NCBI GenBank assembly: GCA_963377175.1
Contig: CAUJNA010003505.1
Location: 103,501-167,500 of the forward strand
Length of the DNA stretch: 64,000 bases
Source: Effrenium voratum
Lineage: Eukaryota; Sar; Dinophyceae; Suessiales; Symbiodiniaceae
Direction: 5' to 3'
Below the pieces are notes generated by a model that searched no databases, was not told the DNA's origin, and saw only the letters and a program-made list of their open reading frames with translations. A program made the translations under genes and the position numbers. How positions within the stretch are numbered: the first letter of the stretch is position 1; every line of letters begins with the position of its first letter. Positions 18,501 to 36,300 of the stretch are shown here, piece by piece.

Positions 18501-20758
18501 GAGCCTTAGACAAGAAAGGGTCCTTTTTCCCACTGGAGGTACAGCAAAAGGCCGAGAATGCGTGTCGTACTTTTGGGGAGCGTGGGGGCGGGGAGGTTAA
18601 GGGAGTCGGGGGGTTGGAATCCTAGAGTTGGCGGCTGAAGATGAGGGCTCGGGTTTGACTCGCCGCATGATAGGACATTTGGGGGTGGTTTGTTGGTGGC
18701 CGCCCTTTTGGGCTTCCAGAAAGAAGCCAGCAATGTCGCGAGTTGCACTAGAAGTTGAATGGGTACTTGGCACGGAATGTCCGGTGGCACCGCCCAAGAC
18801 CCGAGCTGGGATCTCAAGGGGATTGGACCCATGCGTTTGATTCGGGGAAGTATCCGCGGCCTTGTGAGTTCGCTTTTTGGAGATATGGCTTTCAAGGTAC
18901 GTATGAGCTATGGTCAAAACACCCAAAACACCCTTTCACTTGGGCTAGGTTGGTGATGGAAAGTGCAAGAAGGAATTCGGACAGCCATTGCAAGCCAATT
19001 GTAAGGGTTCCGAATATTTCGGAGCTTCGGCCGCACCTGGGATTCCTGGTCCAGATTCCCAAATGTTACAAGAGTTGAGTGGCCAAACCGACACTTTCGG
19101 TCGCCAAGTAGACCAAGTCCAAATCCACGGTGTCGAGGCTTTTTCCGGGGACCCATTCACCTCCGCCCGAGGGAGCGGGGCTCAGGTGGGCATGCACTGC
19201 GTGGACAAGGATTGGCTGCACGCCACCGGGGTCTACGCCTGCAAGGAGCAGATCTGATCCGGCGCAAGTTGCAATGGCGATACCACGGAAAGGAAGAGAC
19301 GAAGTTGGGGGCAAAAAAGGGGGAGGTACCCGCTCACAAAGAAAAAAGAGGAACCTGACAAGGGGGGGTTTTGCTGGAAGACTATTCTCCTTTTAAAGGG
19401 ACCCTGGTTCCATGTTAATTGGTGGGAGGGTATATGATTGAGCCATCATCTTCATGGGGGTCGCAGTGTAGCTTGTTGACATATTATATGTGGTGATATT
19501 TGTGATAAGAGGAAGTTAAGTCTAGCAATGAGAAGATGATGATCTATCGCAACCTTGACTAATTCTGTTTGAGGGCATCAACGTTATAGGTTTCGAGTGC
19601 ATCGATGGGGATCCCGACAATGTTGGCGATTTGCACTGGTTCTCAAGAAATCAACAATAATTTGAGAACAAGCCGTTTTGGGATCCCCTGGAGGGACACC
19701 ATCAGTTGGGGAAGGGGATTCGACATTTTGGAGATCTCCATTTGTGGAATGTGTTGTTTTTTGTGAAGGGGAGGACTCGAAGACTGGAACTGACAAACCT
19801 CCCAGGCGCGGGTTGGCGAAGGCCCTGCAACATTTTGAGTTTTCGGGGTCCTAGCACAAAGCAGGTTTTTTTGGGCTAAATACTTCTTGCTAGTTCCTTC
19901 TCCTTCGCCGCGCTTGCCAAAGCTAGATGAGAGTTCTTCGAAAAGAACAGATCCGAAGTAGGCTCCAAGAAGCAACCTTTTGGGAACCGACCCCCAGCGG
20001 ATTCCGAGCCAAGCGATCTGCAAGCAGCATGTTGGCATGAGTCACGGCATCGAAACGATCTGCAAAAGTTACCTGTGGACTTGGGACAATGGGCGAGTCC
20101 CTCCCGGGGTTTGTTGGAATAGTAAGTTTATCCCTTCCGCATTGACACTGGAGCAAATGTTGATGCAGCCCGAAATTGGGGCATTCCTCCGGGCAAACGT
20201 TATAACATGGCACCTGTGGGAGATTGACCTGGAAGGTCAATCCCCTCTTGAAGGGGCCCAAGTCAGGTGCCACATGGTACCATACTGTGGATGGACGAAA
20301 TACTGCACCACCTCAGAGACCCTGGAAGGATGATTCCCTTGTAAATACCAACGAACAGTGGTTTCTCATGGTTTCAATTTGTGCAGGATTTCGTCCTTCC
20401 ACAGTGGGAGGGCACCCATCCAGACATTTGATGAACCCAGAGGGTAACATGGCAGCTGCCGCCGACTTTGCCCGAGGAGCCGGCGCTGGGGTCCGACACC
20501 GAAGGGCCGGCGCTTTGGCCGCCCCACGGCTGGGAATTCAATGGGCCTGAAAAACAGGGGTCGCTGCAAAAATGTGTTCGTTTCCTTTTGGTTCTGCTCG
20601 AAACCGACCAAGAAAGGCCTCCCCTCCCAATCAGGGTCCCCTGGAAGAAAGGAATCCCCACTAAGCAGTGAATCGCCTGAATTATTAACGTTGGGGGGGG
20701 GGGGTATTTATAAGGGGCCGACAGTTGAGGGGCACTTTTGGTGTGTGTGTGTGTGCGC

Positions 20759-20789
<31 letters not shown>

Positions 20790-23700
20790 CGGAGTGACAG
20801 AATGCCCTGTCACCACCCTTTCAGTTTCGCAGCAGGGGCGTGCAGCACCTTTGGCATACTGCACGCAATGAAGCTATTGCCAAAGGTGGGAAGGGTGTCC
20901 AGACGTGGACACCTGTACCTGCTTTCCGTGATTCTGAATGTCCTTTTGGCCCCCTTGGTTGCGGCGCTGTTTGTGCTTCTTGTTCTTTCCTGTAACGGTT
21001 TCGTTTCTAAAGTGAAGCCAAGTGACTTGCAAGCAGACCTCAGCCGAGACTCATCAGTTGTACTCGAGACTCATCAGTTGTACTCGAGACTCATCAGTTG
21101 TACTCGAAAGATTAGCACTCTCCTTTTGGAGTTCAAGTGTGTACACCCCATTCGTGGGGAATCCTCGGGTGTACCCATTGTGTGACCCCGGGCCGGCTCT
21201 GTCGGAAAATTTGACCTCAACGTGCGTATCATAGAACAGCGGAATTTCACATTTAATCAGGAACGAGGTTTCACTAAAGGGAAGAAAGCCGTCAGTTCAT
21301 AGTGACGTTTCACCATAGTTGATAGCTGCCGATTTTCATTGCCTACCTTGACCATTGGTTGAACTTGTTGCTCGTATCATTGCGGTTGTCGATTGCTGAC
21401 TTGTATTTGCTTTGCCTTGTACATTTCGCTCGACCATTGCAGTTGAGGGCCGCTAACTTGCATTTGCATGGATTTGAATATTGTCGGGTCTGATTCTCTC
21501 AAGGTGGAAGTGTGCAAATTCCGATCTGGTTGCGTCACCATGTCTCGACGTGATGATCGTGATAGATCCAGGACTCGACGCAGACGTGATCGGAGTCCGT
21601 CCCCTCAAGCTCACAAAGCACGCCGACGTGAGCACAATGACAACCAGGTCTCGGAGAACATGGATTGGAACAACTTGATTTCATGGCAACACAACTCCGG
21701 CTACAATGCTGCTAACAACTTTCCGATGGTGCCTACCAATTTTCAATCGACTCACAACCCCACACAACAATTCCAGTACCCGGCGATCAACTACATGATG
21801 CCGATCCCTCCTGAACCCACACCGTCCAAGTTCATCCCACCAATGATGCCACCACCGGTCACTACTTCCCAACCTACACCTTCACCTGGACCTCCTGCAG
21901 CTCTACCGGTTCGTCCTCAGAAAGCCTGGCTTACTCCCTCGCCTGACTGGACACCTGCAGATGGCATGTTTGATGTCAATCAACTCTACAACTTCAGCCT
22001 GCCCATGACTGTTGCCAACACTCCACATGGCAACCTTCGCGACATGTCAGGCATGGATATTAGGGACGTACGCCTGGTTCAGGTTATCCACGGGGGCCTC
22101 ACCAACTGGCTGCTCAGGCCGTTTGCACACGGCCGATTCGTGACGTGGGAAGGCTTTCGCACCCGCACTGAAGCCTTACTTTGGAGTACCTGCTCCAAAC
22201 TACTACGAAGATCGCAGTCACTCAACCTGCTCACCCTGGAAAAGGACCTTGCCAACACGCTGGGTCTCAACATTGATGACTTCAATCAGCGCATCAAGGT
22301 CCACGACCATTTGGCCAACCTGGTACTTCAATTTCTTCAACAACATCACACCTCTCTCGCACCTGCTGCCCAGACCGATGACATGGTCAAGAAGTTCAAT
22401 GACTTGAATCGTGCACATGAACTTCTACAGGCTCAGTATTCCGCATCACTTCGCGCATCGACCTCGCCCACGATGACAAACCAGAAAGATGATGCAGAGT
22501 TGGTTACACCGCCACCGGTCAACCACACACCATCCTCGTCACCTGCCAGCTCCCTGCCCACAGCCAGCGCGGCCGCCCTGGATGGCAAGTCGTTTGATAG
22601 CGTGGTGCAACCTCGGATCATGCAGTCTCTTCACGGAGTGTCGTCACCGCCGTCCAAACCGGCGGCGTCACAGTTGCTCACCATGCACAGCACGCCGGAT
22701 GAAGTTGTCAAGTACTACACATGGACCAGTGACCAACCTCGCCTTTTCCTCAAGCAAGCACCCACAACAACCACTTTGGCGTCGCTGGTTAAGTGGGCCA
22801 ATCACCCGTCCCGGCTCAACGGCAACAAGTCGTTAGATTCTATGGCGACGCAGCTTCTTCAAGCCAGGCAGCGCATGCCGAAGGGCGATGCGCCCACACT
22901 CGGTGCAATGGCAGCACTATGGGGTCTTGAACCCGGGTACCTTACCAAACTCACCGAGAAGGCATTGAGTCACCTCATCGTGACCGCTCGCCTGCTTTGT
23001 GGATGAGAAGGCATCATATCGACCTTCGTTCTCATATGAGCCCGGCGCGGCAACAATGTCACGGATGAGTCCAGGTGAAAACTCGTCCGTCAAGTGTTTG
23101 CGTTGCACATGATTGATTTTGTACTTGCTTGTTCTTGCATTGCCTCTTGTGTGATTGTCTGTGATGCTTGTATTCATGTCGCCGCCTTGTGGTAGATTTC
23201 GTTGGTTGCATCTCACCATGTTGGATGAACTTCGCCATTGCGGAATCTATGATGATGTTGCACAATGGCAGTCGCTGGACGACCTTCTGCACTCGTTGAC
23301 TACATTCTCGACGTGCTGGCATTACTGTTTCCCTGGACTACCACCACCGTCGATTCCAATTGAAGAGTACGAATCCATCACACAATTGCCGTGGCTGGGT
23401 CTCATCATCGAGGTCTTAGTTATGGTCCGGATAGCCCTCCAGATTCCGAATTGCGCTATGTCAAACTCTCAGCACACCGTGGCCAACAGGTACGAACTTC
23501 ACAGATGTCGGTGCGCTGCCTATTTATTGATCAGTTTCTTACAACGTCTCATTTCACAGGATCACGGCTACATCCCGCCGTTCTTCGAAGTTCTTCACTT
23601 CTACAAGACTTCTCTCTTGTGTGAAATCATGCACTCAACTTTCGCTGACACGCGACATCTACGCTCATTGCGGGCGCGATTTCCTGACCTCTACGACTTC

Positions 23701-26700
23701 ATACATGATCCAGGTCATCACCAACAACCGTGCGTCTACATTCGACTTTCCCCATGGCACACACCATACTATGTTGGGGCGACTGATCAGGATGTTCTAC
23801 GTCGTGAACACTCACGCAGTCGCAAATTTCTACAACTACTTCGTGGACGGCATGCCTTCTTTGAACCGGCGCTTCACTACTGGAAGCGATCCAACACTTA
23901 CTGGCTCTTCTGTGCTGTACCAGTGGAAATCAAACTTCCTGTTTCCTCGGTGTGGGTTCAAGAAAGCAAATGGCAATTCCTGCTACGCCCGCATTTGAAT
24001 GCGCCCTGGGTACACAGAATCTTGCGCAAGGTGGGCTTCCGGGAGCATCTTGTAGATTTTCGACGCCACTCGTTGTCGTCGCCCACTTCCTTCGGCTTGC
24101 ACAAGCGCTTTCGACGACGACTACATCCGGATCTCCAACGGCAACTACGACCTGACACCCTGGATGACATTCAAGCCCACTACTTGATCCTCTATCAGCT
24201 GGGATCGAATACAGGAGCGTCGTTCCAAGTCATGCGTGACCTACTGTCAGCCGCTTTCCCTCCCACTCAGCTGTACTACTTATTGCGGCTCGCAGTATTT
24301 GTCAACGAACCCTTCCGCTCCAAGGCCCAGAAGCTCCTCGCCCAGGTACTACGCAAACGACGGCTACAACCACCCACCACGTTAACACAGCTACTTTTGC
24401 CGCCGCTACATGTCCAGAATTGGAAAGCTCTACTGGGCACATGGTTACAAAGCTGGATTGCTTCTCATCGGGATCTGTTCCCCTCTCTTTTCCTTCCAAA
24501 GATCCGGGTTGTGGAAACTCGCAGCGCCACACTGGGCGACAAGATATACAACTATCGCACATGGCAGCGCAAATGGGCGCCTGACACATTCTTTCCGTGT
24601 CGCTGTTGGGACATCGATGATAGCCATCTACACCGTGCACATGGTCACGCAGTAATGTTGGATGAGTTTTCTCGCATCAATGCGGACATTAACATTGAAA
24701 TCATGACCGCCTCGATGAAGGATCAGTTTTTCGGTGATGTCGACTTATTACATCAACGTTTCACCACACAACTTCGCAAACTTGCTCGACGCTGGCATGT
24801 ACATGGTTCCGGTCTGCTTTCAGATCTACAGCCAGTTGTGTCTCAGCTAATGGACACTCATCGGATCAACCTTCAAGATCGGGCTTATTGGTCATCGACA
24901 TCGTTGCAACGCACTGTGGCTTCTTTGTCTTCGTGGGTAGTCATCCCGGCGGATCATTTCCCCTCCCGCGCACATGTGATGTGCCCGTCCCTGTTTGCCA
25001 TATTGATGCGGAAGACATTCTGCGCGGGGGATGTCTTCTCACTTTGCCGCGAATCTGCAGCATCCTTCCGCTCTGAAGTGGTAAACACAGTACCTTCTCT
25101 CCTACGTCAACGATATGCATGGGGCCTTCGACTTCAAGCACCGTTGCCTACAGCGCGCATCCTCCCAAAGCCGACCAAGGACTGGCAGAAAGCTCGACCC
25201 ATCATCTCATTCTTTCGCACATGGGCAGCTCCCTTCCTCACGGTCTTCGGTGCACTTATATTTGAACTCACCAAGGCAGCCTTCCCCGACATTGCAGGTC
25301 AACTCTCAGTACAAGAACTTATCCAGCAGCTGTGGGAAGCACTGTCAAAAGCAGATCCTGATGAGTACATCCACCTGGTGTCGCAAGACTTGTCAGGCTT
25401 CTTCACGTCCATTCCTACGGAACGTTTCCATCAGGCGCTTCAAGTGCTTCTTCATCGCTATGATCAAGTTGTTGGCCTTCGCGGTTCCTCGCAATGGTCC
25501 GTGTACGAAGTCAAGTCAGATCATCGACGCCGTATGTTCAAAGGAAAGTGGCGCCGTCAAACCAAGATCCCTCGAATTTTTCGTGAACAAGATCTCCGGC
25601 ACCTTCTGGACTTTGTCATTGACAACAGTCACTTCGAGATCAACGGATACCTGTTCCGCCAAGAACGAGGAGTCGCTATGGGATCACCAGCCGCGCCACC
25701 GTTGTGCAATTTGGTAGCTACGGTTGAAGATTTCTTCTGGCACCGAACCATGATTTCACTGCGGTTTTGCATGCCCGACATTGGTGTGATTTGGCATGAG
25801 CGCTACGTCGACAATCGTTTCATTCTCCTTCGAGACTCAGCCCCACACTCACCCGTGCTCATGAACTTTCTTTCCCTGGAATTTTATCGCCCACCCGTGA
25901 TGCTTGAGGTTCAACATGATGACAAAGTACTGGGTTACCGATGTGTGATTCTTCTTCCAGGACTATCACTCCACAGCTACCCGATCATCCCTCCCAAATC
26001 AAAGGAATTCGGAGTGCCAATGATCGGATGTTCACTTATTCTTCTTGGTCTTCTCGCTCGTGGCTCATCATACGCGGTGCGCAACCAGCGGTTCAGCAAC
26101 AACATGGGCTCGACGCTCTCAAACGCCTTTACGAGGCCAAAGGTTTTGAATCTCACCTTCTGCGGGATGTTCGCCGTCGACTTGGGACAAAATTTGCATG
26201 TGTGCTTGTCCTTTGTCCCTTCTTGTGCATGCTTGGGACTGTGTTCGTTGCATTGCGCTTGGTTTGCATGAACGGTGTGCTTTAACATGAGCTTTGTCCT
26301 TGTGCCCCAGTTGGCTCAGAACTATGGCGGAATATATGATCACTAGCACTCTGCGTTCGGATGGCTCGATACAAACTACGAGCCGCGTGACGCTCGATCA
26401 CCTCCCCAACTTCATCAACGGCAATGAGATCCAAATGTTCATTCGGACCCATGGCATAGCACACCAGCAGAGTGTGCAATCCCACGGCTCGTCACGTGAT
26501 GTACCAGCACTCACTGAGCAGCCCAGATCGCGTTCCCCCCGGTCACGAATTCCGCGGATCCAGCTCACACCGGGCCCGCAAGGGCATTCGGATGAGGAAG
26601 AAGATTGGGGTGAATGGAGGAGTGATGGCAGACACGCCCATAGTGATCAAAGGAGGCCACGTTCGCCTCCGTTTCCCCCTGCTCATGCCAGTCCTTCTGA

Positions 26701-29700
26701 GAACCGCATCGCGCTGGTGCCTCTCTCAGTTCGTCGGCAGGTGCCTGATTTGGGGGTTCATCGCTTCAAGCTACGCACTGGGTGTCGGATCGAGGAGATC
26801 GCCATCGAAGTGAATGACGTCCTCTACTACACCTTACCTTCGATTGCCGCCTTGGTATTCCCGGAGCCGGACCTGTTGAAGAAATCATGGGAGTCTGTCT
26901 ACAGGAGCCTCATGCCACACCGCCGCAGTATCATAGCAGATGAACAGCGGATCATGTCCATTTCGGAGTTTCCGTTTGCTCAGCCGCCGCATGGGGTCCC
27001 GGGACGCTGGACAGCGCAGGTGGTCAAAGACATCTCGGACTACTTCCAGGTCTCTCGGCGGTCACTACCGCAGCAACTCATCGTCCAGCTCGGCATTTGC
27101 GAGGAGAAGTGGCCATATATCTGCAGAACCACGCGGACGTTTCATCACTTCTCCGCGGACAAAAAGAACTCGCAGAAGAACCTCTTTGGGATCATCTTCT
27201 CCTTTGAGCCACGCCGATTGCTGCCGGACAAGCAGCGCACTCAATCGCAGTCCACATTTTTCTGGTCCCACAACACCAACATACAGGCTGCCATGCAAAT
27301 CCTGCGTGATGAGGAACTGATCCGACCTTCGAAGTGGCAAGAACACCCTTCCCCCAATCGTGAATGCTCCAACTGGAACGAAGTTTGGTTGCCACCGATG
27401 GGATTCTACTGCAGAGGCAGCCTCCAGTCTCAGGAAGCGGCCATCCAATCCGCAGCGCAGTTCGGTGGAATCCGGACGGACCGCCCGGTGTGTGTTGGTG
27501 GCTCTGCTCGTCTCCGACAACAGCATTGCACTATACCCCGCGGCGGCGTGTACGCGGACATAGCAGCCTCCCACTACTATGACTGCATTCATGCCAAGGA
27601 TGGCAGGTGGAAACTAAGATCTTCGATCGCAGTGCCCAGCTACATGGGCATCTTCTGGTGAACCATGGTAGCATGCCAGTACAATAGCGTTGCTGCTGAC
27701 CTGATGTGTTGTGCGCTTTGTGTTTTTCATGATGAACCTCATGACGCTCCTCTTCCGAAAAAACGCATTGAATTGTCCGTGGCTCATGGTTGACTTTGAT
27801 ATTTCCTTGTGCGGTGTTGCTTGCATGATTTGTTGTTTGCCTTCTGAATGCTTGCCGTCGCCGCTTTTAGTCATCACTGGTTGATTGGGCCCTGGTTGTC
27901 TCATCTTTCCGGGATTGTGATGGATCATGGGGATATGCTACGTGATTGTCGGCACATGCTGCTCGCTATGACATCGCAAATCAGTTTACTTTTGGCTGGA
28001 CTGCAGCGTCTTGAGGGCCAGCATCGACATCCACAGCCGCCCCCACCGCCACCGATTCCAGAAGTTCACCCCCCGCCGCTGCCTCCGCCGTCCACGGCGC
28101 CGCCGTACTTGCCAGCAACATCGGTCAGACCCGACCTCATGGCAACGCCGGTCACTCTTGTGGCCACCACGGATAGCCGTGCGGAGCACTCTGCTCACGT
28201 GCGCACGGTGAGTGTTAGCACCTCCTGGGAGCACAGACGAAGGCGAAGATCTAGACATCGAGAGCCGCACCGGAGACGATCCCGCAGCCATCATCGTCGG
28301 CTACCAGACCGTCCTGTTGATGCGGTTCCCGTGGTCCGCCGTCATGCTCACACACCTAAGTACCCACCGGCAGTCAAAGCCATGCCAGCTTGCAGACCAT
28401 CCGGTCTGTCTTATGAACGGTGACGGAGCAACAGCGACAAAAGTACCTCAGCGTTTGCTTCGTTCATGCTTGCATGCACCTTGTCTCTGTCATGCCGCAG
28501 CATTATCGCTTTGCAGCTTTGCGTGAGTTGCCCTTGTGGTTTGATTGGTTGCCATGCAGTTGTCGGCTGAGTTTGTGAACAACCTGGTGGCTGTGCTCAA
28601 TGTTCTTGCATCCCAAGTCGCGACAGCTTTGGACACACTGAACTTTGCCTTGATGACGGAGCGTGGTCGTCCGACAGACACGGTGGTGACCCCGAGAGCA
28701 CCAAGAAACTCCAGACATGGGTTGCGGCCCCGCATCATCACGGAGCTCGCCTCCTCTGACCGATCTCGTTCCCCCACACGCATTCGGGCTCGACCGGTGG
28801 ACACGTCATCTACCTGGTACATACCGGCTTTGTCACCGCCTCGAGCCGCACATCGTGATGCTAGTGAACACAATCCTGGTACTCGGCCCGAATCTGTGTT
28901 AGATCGACTGCCACCGCCTCGTCCTCGTGCTCCTTTCGCGGCACACGGTGCACGAGAACCAGGACAGACGACGCCCACGACACCTGATTCGGATTCTGAT
29001 GGTTCGATACATCCGCATCCAGGTGCCTCGTCATTCCGGCCGTCACCGACAGTGGTTCATGGTCCTCGGGAACTTCTACAAGAGTTTACCATTGCACTTC
29101 GCAATGCATACCGTGAACCTTTCACGGCATGGACACAGGGCGAGCTGGATGAAATGGTGAGACGGAAGAAAGATAAGGATTCCAGACCCACCTATAAGAC
29201 CATTGCGCGGTTTCTTCAGAAGCCGATTGAGGAAGTGAAGCAGGCATGGAAGGTCTATCAACAACTTGAGGCTCGCGGCTAGGAACAAGCCCGGCAAATG
29301 CAACAGTGACCATTGATGGACCAAATGATAAGCGGCGGCGGTGTGTCCGGTTTGAGTTGTTGATCACATGATACTTGCTTGCTTGCACGTGACTCAATCT
29401 TGCTTGTCGTGTTGCGAAATGTCGTTGACATGCAGTGATGTCCTTCCTGAGTTGCTCAAATCATGTCAGAACAAGTTGTACAGACGTACATTACCTGGAC
29501 CCATGGAGCGCAGCCGACGTGGTTACAATTTCATGGACCCGGGGCTCTACTCGACAGACCCATTCGGCTGACTACGTCGCCTCCGCCCCCGCCAAGTCTG
29601 CCACTGCTTCTCCCACCTCCTCCACCACCACCACCACCACCACCGGTGATTCTACACCCCCAGTTTATGCCCTCGATACGCAGCACCTCGATCTCAGCCC

Positions 29701-32700
29701 CTCGCGGACAATCCTGCCCTACCTCTTTGAATTCGCAGCGCACACGCCGCTCGATCTACAACACAGACCCTTCCCGTGATGAAGTACCACGCAGTCCAGG
29801 GCGCTCGTCCAAACGATCTCGGACAGCATCAGCTTCAGCGCCGAGGCGATCTCGACGGCCCTTTACAGTGTTTTATTCCAAACGTGCTGGCCGTTCATCG
29901 CGATCCCCATCGGCAACATGCAAACATTACTGTCACGCCATCCTGCGCCATGGACGGAAATGTCTTTCCCCTTGTGCACGCAGACGACCAGGTCACTATC
30001 ATTGCAGGTGTGCGCGACATCAAAGACAGTGAAAGCCAGGTTTCAGACAGTTCAGACCTCGCTGACCCGTTTCACCTTGTGTTTGAAAAGTTGCCTTGCT
30101 CCTCAGTGGATGTGTGCGGTTAGCAATGCATGTGTGTCCTTGCCGCAGATTTTCGATTTGTTTAGCAGTCGTGCAAGCCCGTATTGCTGCTATGAACCCC
30201 CAGTATTTCGAGTACCAGATCGACAGAGGAGTGGAATGGATTCGAATTTACTCTCCGGGCATTTGGAGGCCCGTTCCGGAGGAAGCGCCAGTTCCGGACC
30301 CACTTTACGCTTCCACATTTCGGGAGTGGCGCAGATCATACCACTTCCAAGTGTACTGGTCTGAAGACAGCACCGGAGGCACCACAATGGATCCTATTGC
30401 CACGCCCAGTGCCTATGTGTCCTATCACGTGTGGGAGTACCGAGACTGGCAAACGCGAGGGTACCAACGACTTGGACCTCCTGTCCAATCCATCGGACTC
30501 GCGATGCTCGCCAACGCAGACATCGAGTCCTCGGTGGGCTCGTCGGTACCTGATGGAGCGTGGCGGGAACCGTCACCGCCACCATTCCATGATCCTTGGA
30601 ATAATTCGGATTGACTCATGAGTTGCATGTTGGATAAAGATGAGGTTGTGCGTGCTTTGAATGTGAGTTCTCATTGGGTTGTCTTGCTTGGTGCTGTGCA
30701 TGTTGTCTCCATGTGCCCGCCGCTCTCTGTGATAACTTTGAGCAGCTCGGGTTGAAATGTTCAATAGTACGGTGCAGGGTGCAGCAGGATGGATCCTACC
30801 TCGCTATTTTGACTATGACATCGTCAATGGACCAGCAGGAACGAGTGTGGAATGGATTCGAATCTATGTGCCGGGTCAGTGGCATCCAGTAGCCCCTGAC
30901 ACCCTGGGACCGGCCCCGGATGACCCGACCGCCTATCGGGAATGGCGCAAGGTCTACCACTTCGAAGTGTACTGGCCCAGGGAAAGCACTGGCGGCACAA
31001 CTATAGGCACGGCTCTGCAACCGGTATCCCACGCCACTTTCTACACTTGGTATTACAGGGACTGGGTCACCAGAGGGTACCAACGCCTGGGTCGTCCACA
31101 TCCCAGCATAGCGAGGCCAGTTTTCGCTTCGGGTGCGCCGGACCTCATGTATGCTGGAATGACCTCCTCTTCGGCATCATCCAATTCACATGATAGCTGA
31201 TGCCCGTCCTCGCCTCCCTGGAGAGTCTGACTGTGATGTTGGCGCCGCACAGTGCTACAAAAGTGGTCTTTTGCGTTTTGATTGTTGATTTGCTTTCACT
31301 CGTTGTTGTCTGCAGCCGTACACCTATCAACTTGACTTTCCGTGGTTGCGTTGTCATGCCGTGGCTGGAATGGTGCCCGGACCCTCAACAACCTGATGCC
31401 CAGTGGGTCAAGATCTTTCATCCGGGACCATGGACGCCTCAGGAAGAACAGGATGCTCCACCTCCTCCGCATACTTTCAGAGAATGGCGGGAGTTCTATG
31501 CTCCCAACCAGGACTCAGTTGAAGGGCAAGTCCAAGTCACTACGTGGTACAAGCGAGACTGGGCCACGGAGGGCTATCGGAGAATCGCTGCTCCTCACGC
31601 CGGTCATGAATTTGATTCCATGTATCCCTCCGATCACCATAACGTGGCCACGCAGTCTGCGTCGTTGAGTATGTCGCCGGAGCTGTTAGACGCGATTCTC
31701 AGGTCCTCGGATGCGGCTGATTTCTCCACTGAGGAACTGATTCGTCTCCAGGAGGGGATTTCTCAACAACTGACGGCCCGCGCACGTCTGACCTCTCATC
31801 CTCATCAACCAGTACGTGCGTCGCGTGGCAACACACCATCGGAGACGATTGGGGTCTCCGACCCCTACACGCCCGTGAATCCGTCCGGTAGCGGCCAAGA
31901 CAAGATGAGGCCCGTCTTCGAGCTCACTGAAGACTAGCCTTGCATGAGCAGCGCAGCGTACAAAATAAGGGTGACCTCTCCACTTGCATGATCTTGCTTT
32001 GCTGTTGTTTGAACATGGTTGTGCATGGTGCTTGTCCACCTACTAGCTGGATCGGAGCCCGCGACCATCCTTGCCTCTTGCCTCGACATGGACATCGATG
32101 ATTCCAAGCAGTATCCATGGCTCGAATATTCGGTCTGGCATGATCAGGAGTGGGTGCGGATTTACACTCCGGGACAACCTCAACGATGGCACCGTGGTGA
32201 CGCCGTACCTGATCTACCTGAAAACTCTTTTCGTGAATGGCAGCGGGTGACGGATCCCGAAGCGCCAGTCCAGGCATGGGACATCCGTGACTGGCAACAC
32301 CAAGGGTACCAGCGCATTCTGTCTCGGATTGAGTCCTTCGCAACTCACTGTTCACATGATCAGACTCTTGGTCAAGGTCGGAACTCCGATGCCGTTCAAG
32401 TTGAGGAGACCTTCACCTATGCCACTCCGTTTTCTCATGGTGATCGCCCGGCTGCTTCGCAGATCGCTTCAGTCCTCTATGGCGACACTCGTAATGCTCA
32501 ACGTTGTGAACTTTCGTTCCCGTCTTCTGAGCGGTTTAGGGCAGTGTCTCGCTCCCCTCGCCGTGGTGGATATTTTGGCCAACGATAGTGATTTGAGTTT
32601 GAGCATGTGATCTTCCTGCAGGAGAAAAGAGAAACCTCGCCCCTCGTAGAGGGGCGTGTGTGTGCGGAGTGACAGAATGCCCTGTCACCACCCTTTTTTC

Positions 32701-33271
32701 GCAGCAGGGGGGGCAGCACCTTTGGCAACTGCACTGCAATGAAAAGCTTGCCAAAGGGGGGTGACCAGACGTGGTGTACCTGCTTTCCGTGAATCTGAAT
32801 GTCCTTTTGGCCCCCTTGGTTGCGGCGCTGTTTGTGCTTCTTGTTCTTTCCTGTAACGGTTTCGTTTCTAAAGTGAAGCCAAGTGACTTGCAAGCAGACC
32901 TCAGCCGAGACTCATCAGTTGTACTCGAGACTCATCAGTTGTACTCGAGACTCATCAGTTGTACTCGAAAGATTAGCACTCTCCTTTTGGAGTTCAAGTG
33001 TGTGTGTGTGTGTGTGTGTGTGTTTGTTGTTTGTTTGTTTGTTGTTTGTTGTTTGTTGTTTGTTTGTTTGTTTGTTTGTTTGTTTGTTTGTTTGTTGTTT
33101 GTTGTTTGCTTGTGTGTGTGTTTTTGTGTTGTTTTTGTTTTTGTTTGTTTTTGTTTTTGTGTTGTTTTTGTTTGTGTGTTTGTTGTTGTTTGTTGTGTTT
33201 GTGTGTTTTGTTGTTTGTGTTGTTTTGTTGTTGTGTGTTGTGTGTTTTGTGTTTGTGTGTGTTGTTGTGTG

Positions 33272-33302
<31 letters not shown>

Positions 33303-36300
33303 TGTGTGTTGTGTGTTTCTGTGTTTCTGTGTTTCTGTGTTGTGTGTGTTTGTGTGTTTGTGTGTTTGTGTGTTGTGTGTGTGTTTGTGTGTTTGTGTGT
33401 GTCTGTGTGTCTGTGTGTCTGTGTGTCTGTGTGTCTGTGTGTCTGTGTGTCTGTGTGTCTGTGTGTCTGTGTGTCTGTGTGTCTCTGTCTCTGTGTCTCT
33501 GAGTCTCTGTGTCTCTGTGTCTCTGTGTCTCTGTGTCTCTGTGTCTCTGTGTCTCTGTGTCTCTGTGTCTCTGTGTCTCTGTGTCTCTGTGTCTCTGTGT
33601 CTCTGTGTCTCTGTGTCTCTGTGTCTCTGTGTCTCTGTGTCTCTGTGTCTCTGTGTGTCTGTGTGTCTGTGTCTCTGTGTCTCTGTGTCTCTGTGTCACT
33701 GTGTCTGTGGCTGTGTCTGTGTCTGTGTTTATGTCTGTGTCTGTGTCTGTGTGTGTGTGTGTGTGTGTTTTTTTGGAGGGTACCCTATTTTTGGAATTCG
33801 GTTTAATAGGAAACCAAAAGGAGACCCACAATTTCACTATTCTGGGTAGGGTCCCCTATTTGGACGCGTAGCCTTTGTTTCTTCGGATCCGGGGTGCCAA
33901 AAACGTATGTTCCCAAGAGGGGCGGATCACATGGACCAACAGAAAGAGAGCTTGTGGGTTCTCATGTCAATGTCAGCTTTAAGCCACCAATCCAAACCAC
34001 TAATTTACGGGACGCTGACTTTTAGGAAATCAGCACGTATTGACGCAAATGTGTTTGAATCAAACGATGGGTCCAAGTGTTCATGTCGCTATTTGAACAA
34101 ACGTGAATCATACTGTGGATGGACGCAATCCTGCGCCACCTAAGAAACCTTGGAATGATGATTCCCCTGTAAATAGCAACAAACAATGGTTTCCCATGGT
34201 TTCAACGTGGTGCAGGATGAACAATTGATGGAGTACACATAACGTCCTAGGACCCTCTTCAATGAACGTGTATAGGCCTCGCGTATAGTGTTTTGGCTTA
34301 CGCCCGATTTGGGGTCTCCTTGAAGGTTCCTAGGAGACCATTAGGTCTGATTTCGTTTGAAGAGTTGGCTCAATTTCGATGGGTGTCTAAAGAAAGGGAA
34401 GGAGACCATAGCGAACCATTTTGGAGGTCTCAGAAGTTTGGGAAGCACGCTTGCTTGGTGGTTCTTTGAAGTTCCCTGCACCTTTTTTGTCGGATTTTGT
34501 CCAGCTAGTCATCGGCTTTGGATGCTTTGCTTGCCTTTGGTTCGGGATGGGCTGTCACAGATTTCGGCATTGTGCGGTGCGTTGGACGGCCGAACAATTC
34601 CGCAGGTCAAAGCCATGAATTCTTGTGCGGTGTTTGTTTGCTAAACACATGGGTAGCCATTGAAAAGGGGGATGATAGGAAGATAGTGTATATACATATA
34701 TATATATATATATATAGCTTCCTCCTTTCTTTTTTTCGCGCAAGCGACCCGAACGGGGGCCCTGGTTTGATCAACAAGCGAATACGTCAAGGATCCTGCA
34801 TCAAGCCCCCCTTCATCATCAAGCCCGAAAGACGCTATTTTGGGGGGGTCCTTGGACATCATATTTGTCATGTTTATTTCGTTGTATGCAGCGCCAGATA
34901 GACTTTTTGTACATGAGCATGTGAACAATACATGGGCATTCGACAGCCCTTCCGGCACGAGATGAAATGCGCACCCGCTGCATGGAACCGCAAGACCCTC
35001 TATGCCGGGCAGGCTGGGCGCAAAAGACCCTCAATGGCAAGCCCGGGTAACTGAGGCGCGGCGCAGATGGCAACGCCGAAGGCCACAGGGCCAGCACTAG
35101 CGCTGCTGGACCTGCGGGCCTGTGGTCGCCTGAAGACCTTCAGCGGCAAGGACGAAGACTGGGTGACATCATGGGTCTTCGTGGCGCACTCAGCCTCAGA
35201 GATGGAGACCGCAGAGCCGTCCCAGGATGCGAAGGTGTGTGCGTGGGCCTTGTTCAACATCTTCACGTGGAGGGCAAAGCCTTGTCAGTCATCATGAATG
35301 CGGAGGTTGGCAGCGGACTGCAAGCGTGGAAGCCGGTGGAGCAAGGTGCCCGAGCAGAACGTCCTGGAACACGTGGAGCGTTGGGAGGTGCTCATCAGAC
35401 GCTATCAGGACCAGTCCAAGGAGGAGCACCATCTGGAATCAGGATGGCGTTGAGGACGGACGAGCAATTGGACTGCTTCTGACAAGCTCAAGAAGTGTGT
35501 GTGGGACTACTTTGCAAGCTGAGTTCAGCGCGCAGGGATGTGGAAGCCAGGAACAAAAGCAATGGCAAGCGCAAGGACAAGCAGAAGGGCAAGCGCGGCG
35601 AGAAGGACAAGGGCAACAAACCCAAAACAAGAGGTTTGATGGTGAATGTGCCTACGCGAGCTTGGTTTGGCGCCCTGCTTCGCTGACCTGGCATGTCTGG
35701 TGGGCGGAGCACCGTCCCCCGAGACTTCCTGGGAAGCGCTGCTTCGAGAGTTCAGAGTTTGCTTCTGCGGGCAAGCTTCACAGTCCAGATGGGGCGTTTG
35801 ATGGTGACGTTGAGAACGCATGGAGAGCCGGTGACTCAGCAGCTGGCAAGGCAAGTGCATACCACAATTCTCAAGATAAAGGGAACTGGAGACGTCTACA
35901 CACCACCGTTGGAGCAGCTGAGTGATCTGCTGACCATCAAGAGCGACGTGAAGGAGAACTACGGCATGGGCGTCACACCTGCGATGAGTGTGTGTGGATT
36001 GCCTGGTTCCTTCAGCAAGACCATCCTCTACAAGATGCTGAGGGGCCAGGCAGACAGGCGCAAGGCGGAAGGCAGCTGAAGATGACTAGTTGGTGGGCGA
36101 CGTGACCGGCGTCCACACAGCGAGGACAGCGAGGCGCTTGAGAGAAGAGCTGAGGCGCAACAAGGAACTCTTCCAGAAGATGAAGGGAGTTCCGTGGGTC
36201 CACAACGAGGAGGAGCCAAGAAAGAAGCCAAGCGGACAGATCCTGGTGACCCACAGCCGGTTGTGGTGGACGAGAACAAGGATGGCAGAAGAGAGATGCA

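Follow-up and report, generated by a model that had tools for sequence, protein, structure and literature searches.

A probable multi-gene Penelope-like retrotransposon family in the dinoflagellate Effrenium voratum

Introduction

Can a Penelope-like element (PLE) carry a large set of genes of its own in a dinoflagellate? The question is raised by a 64,000-nt stretch of Effrenium voratum DNA (assembly GCA_963377175.1, contig CAUJNA010003505.1, positions 103,501 to 167,500 of the forward strand; the whole stretch is called the window below), in which ten open reading frames (ORFs) of one orientation lie between direct terminal repeats (TRs) and the second, ORF2, resembles a reverse transcriptase (RT). 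Endonuclease-bearing PLEs are described as compact and single-ORF, and rotifer terminons as multi-ORF PLEs that are endonuclease-deficient and telomeric and carry hammerhead motifs with telomeric repeats (PMC6431247). No description of such a dinoflagellate multi-gene PLE was found in the literature by title and abstract opening, subscription literature lying mostly outside the coverage.

The element is a real, strongly divergent multi-gene PLE. With a probability of roughly 0.8, it belongs to a family of multi-gene Penelope-like retrotransposons that has been active recently in a dinoflagellate. An earlier note on the window had proposed a multi-gene Penelope-like element in a dinoflagellate, which is supported by the recurrence of the ten-ORF unit and by the telomerase/Penelope type of its RT. 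The note's further suggestions, a phylogenetically distinct lineage and accessory proteins that may package, protect or target the element, stay hypothetical.

Results

Extent of the element

Genome searches were performed on the 1.156-Gb E. voratum assembly, in which the window copy lies on contig C3323. The mobile unit spans window positions 20781-33003 (~12 kb), its TRs enclosing ten ORFs, all on the + strand; the earlier note had placed it at 20791..33003, of which the right end stands, while the left TR begins 10 nt further out. The terminal direct repeats noted there were confirmed as one block of 229 nt and another of 41 nt without any difference between 20781-21142 and 32656-33003. In the following list, pI is the isoelectric point and pN/pS the ratio of nonsynonymous to synonymous change.

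20781..21142, + strand: left TR, 362 nt, with blocks identical to 32656-33003
21143..21314, + strand: leader directly behind the left TR, common to the short element L056
21540..23006, + strand: ORF1, 488 aa, basic, pI 9.7; pN/pS 0.12 against copy C2079
23176..26271, + strand: ORF2, predicted GIY-YIG endonuclease, CxC motif and telomerase-like RT; frame-shifted past about codon 931 in the window copy
23725..24009, + strand: predicted GIY-YIG endonuclease domain in ORF2, I-TevI-like
24523..25947, + strand: RNA-binding-like and RT region in ORF2, up to the frame break
26324..27661, + strand: ORF3, 445 aa, basic; pN/pS 0.16; without named relatives
27920..28423, + strand: ORF4, 167 aa, very basic, Pro/Arg-rich, pI 11.5; pN/pS 0.23
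28554..29282, + strand: ORF5, 242 aa, basic; pN/pS 0.13
29463..30032, + strand: ORF6, 189 aa, very basic, Pro-rich, pI 11.7; pN/pS 0.22
30192..30614, + strand: ORF7, small acidic paralogue 1, pI 4.7
30757..31200, + strand: ORF8, small paralogue 2, 48% identical to ORF7, pI 6.5
31356..31937, + strand: ORF9, small acidic paralogue 3, 34% identical to ORF7, pI 4.9
32088..32588, + strand: ORF10, small paralogue 4, 30% identical to ORF7, pI 5.8
32638..32656, + strand: hairpin CGCCCCTC-GTA-GAGGGGCG abutting the right TR
32656..33003, + strand: right TR, 348 nt, ending GGAGTTCAAGTGTGT within a (GT)n tract; helix P2 damaged in the window copy

Recurrence of the unit

Of 2375 candidates in the ORF2 search, 44 were scored as matches, counting that of the window itself; they are 91-100% identical, and in 38 of them the matched stretch is free of in-frame stops. 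The ORF3 search gave 95 scored matches of 1144 candidates. For 33 of the 44 RT matches (window included) an ORF3 match lies 3128-3169 nt downstream of the RT start on the same strand; ORF3 is also present in the four of the other 11 that were read (C224, C777, C764, C3316). Each of the seven ORF3 loci listed for contigs as far as C155 is accompanied by a listed TR near -5.5 kb, near +6.3 kb or, at four loci, at both positions.

Thirteen other loci were read, 12 chosen through RT matches and one (C47) through TR spacing. ORF order is kept to the 3' TR in 11 of the 13. One of these, the diverged copy C2079, keeps both TRs and the order of all ten ORFs, its coding pieces being 78-86% identical at the DNA level. 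The earlier note had named as adverse the case in which only ORF1 and ORF2 recur in other copies; ORF3-10 recur with them. In all ten near-copy loci read the RT is followed by the remaining ORFs as far as ORF10 and by a right TR; C764 lacks about 60 nt of ORF9 and is otherwise ordered to the right TR, and in four of the ten the 5' part is a run of N, which in C3368 takes all of ORF1. C236 ends within ORF3 (3'-truncated) and has lost most of its left TR, and C47 (L057, C47:219400-229399), with TRs spaced just 10.3 kb, has a small-gene array shortened by a deletion running from ORF7 into ORF9. The 5'-shortened copies (4/10) were considered as a sign of target-primed reverse transcription, and this was ruled out because the stretches are N runs.

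TRs start with GTGTGTG(T/C)GCGGAGTG and end mostly with AAGTGTGT. A pattern for the TR start occurs 1204 times in the genome (reversed control 0). Among the first 100 starts, 37 adjacent same-strand pairs and no opposite-strand pairs lie closer than 16 kb, with ~0.8 expected; 19 of the 37 are spaced 11.4-12.5 kb, five 9.8-11.4 kb, five 1.4-1.6 kb and eight elsewhere. In the protein collection, seven same-size contigs are common to 19 close RT and 48 ORF3 relatives, and 16 to the ORF3 and 120 small-paralogue relatives, which is weak evidence. What moves is a single ~12-kb unit comprising the TRs, the ten genes under selection and the cis hairpins.

Left and right TRs are 100% identical (rounded) in five of the eight elements with both TRs readable, and the window's left TR is 100% identical over 362 nt to both TRs of C3071, while identity between lineages falls to 65%. 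Copies lie inside long contigs, for example 1.53 Mb into a 2.80-Mb contig, the window copy being 0.12 Mb into 1.74 Mb.

Coding content and selection

Likely starts were taken as ATGs kept in five of five diverged copies (for ORF1, in three of three readable copies). For pN/pS, ORF2 was counted only to 25940, up to its frame break, and ORF1 in C764 covered only 610 of 1467 nt. Against C2079, in-frame pN/pS was 0.09-0.33 for all ten ORFs (Fisher P 2.5e-119 to 1.1e-8), compared with 1.1-4.2 in the other frames; against C764 it was 0.06-0.24, compared with 0.99-4.8, and over both comparisons Fisher P ranged from 2.5e-119 to 5.1e-7. Each comparison contains one in-frame ORF2 stop. Values against the ten near copies were mostly below 0.4, some near-identical pairs having too few changes and giving single values up to 1.5. 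Identity to C2079 is 29-77% in the nine inter-ORF spacers (52-258 nt, measured from the likely starts) compared with 78-87% in the ORFs. The ten co-oriented ORFs proposed earlier are thus upheld by these ratios and by starts kept in diverged copies, and judged by substitution pattern all ten are under purifying selection.

The predicted proteins split by charge: ORF1-6 are basic (pI 9.4-11.7) and ORF7-10 have a pI of 4.7-6.5. ORF7-10 are paralogues with the common motifs W[IV][RK]I[YF].PG, REW and RDW..GY.R; their profile retrieved 188 proteins, and the 120 that were listed include none with a name or a Pfam domain. The 48 ORF3 relatives are all unnamed as well. An ADP-ribosyltransferase-like identity considered for ORF3 was dropped, there being no match at all. 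Among 42 proteins compared, ORF1 is weakly similar to the front part of P0031 (E 0.001) and of P0036 (E 0.057), and the sequences hint that ORF1 and ORF2 once were, or can become, one gene.

Two arrangements were observed besides. In the distant relatives P0031 and P0036 an ORF1-like front part and the RT stand within one protein, and in copies C2976, C3029, C3688, C3145, C3567 and C1779 ORF3 lies within a 1493-aa open frame, which by length alone is that expected for an ORF2-ORF3 fusion.

ORF2

In the predicted structure of a close relative of ORF2 the endonuclease occupies residues 188-282 and the RT region 454-1018. Structural comparison of this model gave telomerase reverse transcriptase (TERT) in all 13 best rows, RT families lower down or unlisted not being excluded thereby; TERT was also the best match for the region preceding the RT, and helices are present in the model between the motif-2 strands and motif A. 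Cysteines 479 and 481, the CxC between endonuclease and RT, are invariant in 16 of 16 aligned proteins. The Penelope-type RT motifs that the earlier note saw in ORF2 could be read in the alignment, and the possibility it raised of an RT outside the Penelope-like type is answered by the modelled fold, which points to the telomerase/Penelope type. From these comparisons, ORF2 is predicted to combine a GIY-YIG endonuclease with a telomerase-like RT.

The window copy departs from the family reading frame near codon 931, where 39 of the 44 scored matches (window's included) stop aligning; the last ~107 codons of its ORF2 are therefore not the conserved C-terminus, which is seen in P0001 and distant relatives. 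The only named RT relatives are Symbiodinium or Skav entries (P0036, P0041, P0042), P0038 being a 'hypothetical protein'. The family of P0020 itself was not found in the E. voratum genome, a P0020 search giving 52 scored matches, at 32-33%, to window-family copies.

RNA domain of the terminal repeats

The first ~140 nt of the TR hold, in order, P1, a CAGGG anchor, P2, PK, P2', AACGAAG, PK', P4 and CGTACCTGC, of which the helices lie in the window as follows.

20794..20813, + strand: predicted hairpin P1 of the TR RNA (GTG[A/G]CAG / CTG[T/C]CAC)
20838..20888, + strand: predicted helix P2 (20838-20845/20859-20866), its covariation counted, and interleaved pseudoknot helix PK (20846-20856/20878-20888)
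20893..20914, + strand: predicted hairpin P4, variable stem, with a GACG loop in the window and a CTGATCA loop in other lineages

Forty-one TRs were collected, of which 36 with both sequence anchors represent 14 P2 types; L043, L047, L054, win_R and C2756_R were left out, although L043 and C2756_R still form P2. With arms set by the anchors alone, P2 has a mean of 7.43 Watson-Crick pairs of 8, compared with 3.51 with arms swapped between types; the minimum is four (L051, seven if shifted by one), seven pairs were reached by 2 of 182 swaps, and the observed sum was reached by none of 20000 permutations. In the aligned types 111 of 112 P2 cells are standard pairs, 46 cells are changed on both sides compared with 13.5 in shuffles, and the covariation score is 1.104, compared with 0.222 (s.d. 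0.049) when shuffled and at most 0.18 in slid structures. Coarser measures separate less, with double changes at seven of eight pairs (equalled in 51 of 500 shuffles) and 20 further pair types (7 of 500).

PK runs of at least seven pairs are formed in 12 of the 14 types compared with 5 of 182 swaps, the exceptions being L044 (six) and L042 (3' half lost). No loop nucleotide separates the 5' arms of P2 and PK, and some end pairs may open. P1 shows A-T to G-C on both sides between lineages and G-T in some TRs. P4 takes 12 distinct forms (five have 9 bp and a GACG loop, another five 6 bp and CTGATCA; L051 has 10 bp, and L049 lacks the hairpin), whose long stems stand out from shuffles (0-9 of 500) and whose 6-bp stems do so modestly (24-37 of 500). 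Small changes disrupt P2 in the window's right TR. On this comparative evidence the TRs carry a covarying P1/P2/PK/P4 pseudoknot-type RNA domain beside the GT run, its sequence varying by lineage with pairing kept, and with P2 and PK formed simultaneously or alternating.

No hammerhead or other known ribozyme gave an Rfam match at E<=1 in 20500-33500, and Rfam over 17 further loci gave one unrelated match (E 2.3, under its gathering score). An HDV-like topology, considered on paper, was rejected as the helix order does not fit.

The TRs also appear modular (L048, L050, L043, L037, L053, L027/L028), the same helix sets being joined to segments that differ upstream or downstream, and in one element the TR middle exists in two different versions, resembling template switching. 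Towards their 3' ends the TRs contain repeats of a 20-nt unit, GAGACTCATCAGTTGTACTC (at 21040-21118 in the window, and in its right TR), whose number varies between copies; the complement of the unit contains CTGATGAG, with no hammerhead match there.

Candidate cis signals and a short relative

L056 (C102:486300-488500), a short non-autonomous element, has TRs 1.6 kb apart around a pyrimidine-rich body without a Met-initiated ORF longer than 155 aa, and keeps the TR RNA domain, the leader and the hairpin before the right TR. Window 20915-21314 is 79% identical to it, and the leader (21143-21467) is 94-95% identical in C2079 (185 nt aligned), C777 and C14. The hairpin stem was found in the window, in 11 of 11 other copies inspected and in L056. 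The leader and hairpin common to L056 and the window are likely cis signals. L056 shares its P2 type with the TR at C44:255957 (11.1-kb spacing), an indication that it may use the autonomous lineage of that locus.

Insertion sites and expression clues

In 6 of 13 3' flanks the GT-dinucleotide fraction is at least 0.63 (background mean 0.13), in a small sample and partly owing to the element's own GT run. The core of the dinoflagellate spliced leader has 251 exact genome matches (111+140; reversed control 0), which, like the named RT relatives, mark the host as a dinoflagellate; no spliced-leader relic was found in the window at up to 3 mismatches (21-mer) or up to 1 (12-mer). A spliced-leader tandem array stands at C722:109307-122977. 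Around the insertion, a long GT/TCTG-type simple-repeat tract follows the right TR immediately (33004-33760), and a 97-nt direct repeat, 88% identical and outside the TRs, flanks the whole insertion on both sides (20281-20377 / 34109-34205).

Discussion

Chlamys and Naiad elements carry a CxC motif between endonuclease and RT and an insertion-in-fingers domain in the RT, are biased in insertion toward microsatellites and are not known to have a canonical hammerhead ribozyme. These N-terminal-endonuclease PLEs were reportedly described by Craig et al. in 2021 (Mol Biol Evol 38:5005). The window element is like them in its GIY-YIG domain before the RT, CxC between the two, direct repeats resembling pseudo-long terminal repeats (pseudo-LTRs) and lack of a hammerhead match, but has ten ORFs in 12 kb in place of essentially one RT/endonuclease protein, together with a YVDN motif C, four small paralogous genes, a covarying TR pseudoknot and a dinoflagellate host. 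A telomerase-like RT, GIY-YIG in the same protein and direct pseudo-LTRs were all found, as in endonuclease-bearing PLEs, and the endonuclease lies N-terminal to the RT, with CxC and with no hammerhead as far as Rfam models see. Since the GIY-YIG domain precedes the RT, the nearest known relatives by architecture are probably Chlamys and Naiad, not Athena.

With terminons (Athena; PMC6431247) the element shares a PLE-type RT and many accessory ORFs in one large unit; in contrast to them, its endonuclease is fused to the RT, the copies inspected lie within long contigs and there is no hammerhead match, so that neither the endonuclease-deficient RT protein nor, in the copies looked at, the telomeric location was found. 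Canonical Penelope/Poseidon (PAc; PMC11167929) likewise has RT and GIY-YIG in one protein, direct pseudo-LTRs and structured RNA around the repeat-ORF junction, but differs in a C-terminal endonuclease, a single ORF, a hammerhead ribozyme at the junction and a pseudo-LTR not needed in full. Telomerase (TERT with its RNA) is matched in the best structural RT hits, including the region before the RT, and in a pseudoknot RNA beside a GU-repeat run; unlike telomerase, the window element is mobile and has an endonuclease, and the role of its RNA domain is only inferred.

In the mechanism proposed, the TRs would drive transcription of the element RNA, and ORF2 would recognise the TR RNA domain through the RNA-binding-like region before the RT. 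The endonuclease would nick GT/AC-rich DNA, and from this nick the RT would start to copy the element RNA, so that both TRs would be renewed in every round. The basic ORFs 1 and 3-6 may coat RNA or cDNA, the acidic to near-neutral paralogues ORF7-10 may act as assembly or chromatin partners, and separate mRNAs would arise by trans-splicing in the inter-ORF spacers.

Several observations weigh against this mechanism or against the reading as a recently active PLE. Motif C of the RT is YVDN, not YxDD, in 24 of 24 aligned proteins, and therefore RT activity cannot be assumed; by sequence alone the RT profile reached only E 0.21 against the Protein Data Bank (PDB; best match a group II maturase), and Pfam RVT_1 was matched by 5 of 16 relatives and by neither ORF2 nor P0001. 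The accessory ORFs gave no known family above cut-off in Pfam, NCBIfam or PDB, and the structure model of a small paralogue has a pLDDT (predicted local distance difference test) of 48, its abundant predicted strands being of low confidence. Among the eight elements compared, TR pairs are unequal in C596 (97%), C14 (95%, and a mosaic with two different middle parts) and the window (95%), and the 13 loci read are a non-random sample. C224, C3071 and C2079 occupy plain-sequence sites, their left ends carrying (GT)8-10 and their right ends a short GT run, so that a preference for microsatellites cannot be taken as proved. Inspection of the insertion sites by eye showed no evident target-site duplication, no systematic search having been made. 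Lastly, insertion of the lizard element PAc in vitro depends on RNA within the first 172 nt of its ORF, immediately after the pseudo-LTR, and does not require the full pseudo-LTR (PMC11167929); by analogy this would fit a role of the leader better than one of the TR, and does not support TR binding by ORF2.

Three other explanations were weighed. The ten ORFs could be a two-gene PLE (ORF1-2) lying beside, or having transduced, a host gene cluster, with ORF3-10 as dinoflagellate genes outside the element, for the repeats of PLEs can enclose host DNA (PMC3846280), dinoflagellate genes often stand in one-way arrays, and ORF3-10 have no known transposable-element protein match above cut-off. However, the same eight ORFs lie in order between RT and right TR in 11 of the 13 other loci (C764 with its small ORF9 gap), one at 78-86%, ORF3 keeps its 3128-3169-nt distance from the RT start in 33 of 44 matches and all seven listed ORF3 loci up to C155 have TRs at about -5.5 and/or +6.3 kb, so that a host cluster is already contradicted and hardly credible.

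It is very unlikely that the TRs are true LTRs, of an element that moves by strand transfer and integrase and has borrowed a Penelope-like RT: the rounded 100% TR pairs of five of eight elements, against lineages differing down to 65%, would suit it, but PLE pseudo-LTRs are direct repeats too (PMC11167929), a GIY-YIG nuclease is present instead, and the Pfam and NCBIfam matches of the ten ORFs include no integrase, RNase H, protease or Gag, a weak argument since Pfam also missed the ORF2 RT. An integrated virus or capsid-forming retroelement, with ORF1, ORF3-6 and ORF7-10 as structural genes, has in its favour the number of genes, their division into one basic and one acidic to near-neutral set, and four small paralogues rich in predicted strands (in the low-confidence model). 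It too is unlikely, as no capsid, portal or packaging family is among the matches, IMG/VR viral contigs held no RT relative by one peptide pattern of the RT alignment, and GIY-YIG, TERT-like RT and pseudo-LTRs together are the layout of a PLE.

Within the reading as a multi-gene PLE, a more speculative and on balance doubtful idea is that the TR pseudoknot is a telomerase-RNA-like module, on which the ORF2 RT would dock, with the neighbouring (GU)n serving it as a guide or template for priming on (AC)n DNA and with GT repeats perhaps being added at the 5' junction. The last point was suggested by the left ends of (GT)8-10 at C2079, C3071 and C224, compared with (GT)4 at the internal TR starts inspected. 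The helices would then change wholesale yet stay paired because each lineage needs its own RNA-protein lock-and-key, excluding parasites like the 1.6-kb elements. If true, the element would be a retrotransposon that has retained the RNA logic which gave rise to telomerase.

A ten-gene PLE with all genes selected, represented in one genome by 95 scored ORF3 sites and 1204 TR starts, shows that large gene sets can be built by PLEs outside rotifer telomeres. With the TR RNA domain, PLEs have a defined, testable RNA partner, which may link a telomerase-like enzyme to a pseudoknot RNA. The element also offers a way to study the expression of multi-gene mobile DNA in dinoflagellates and the choice of an autonomous partner by short parasites.

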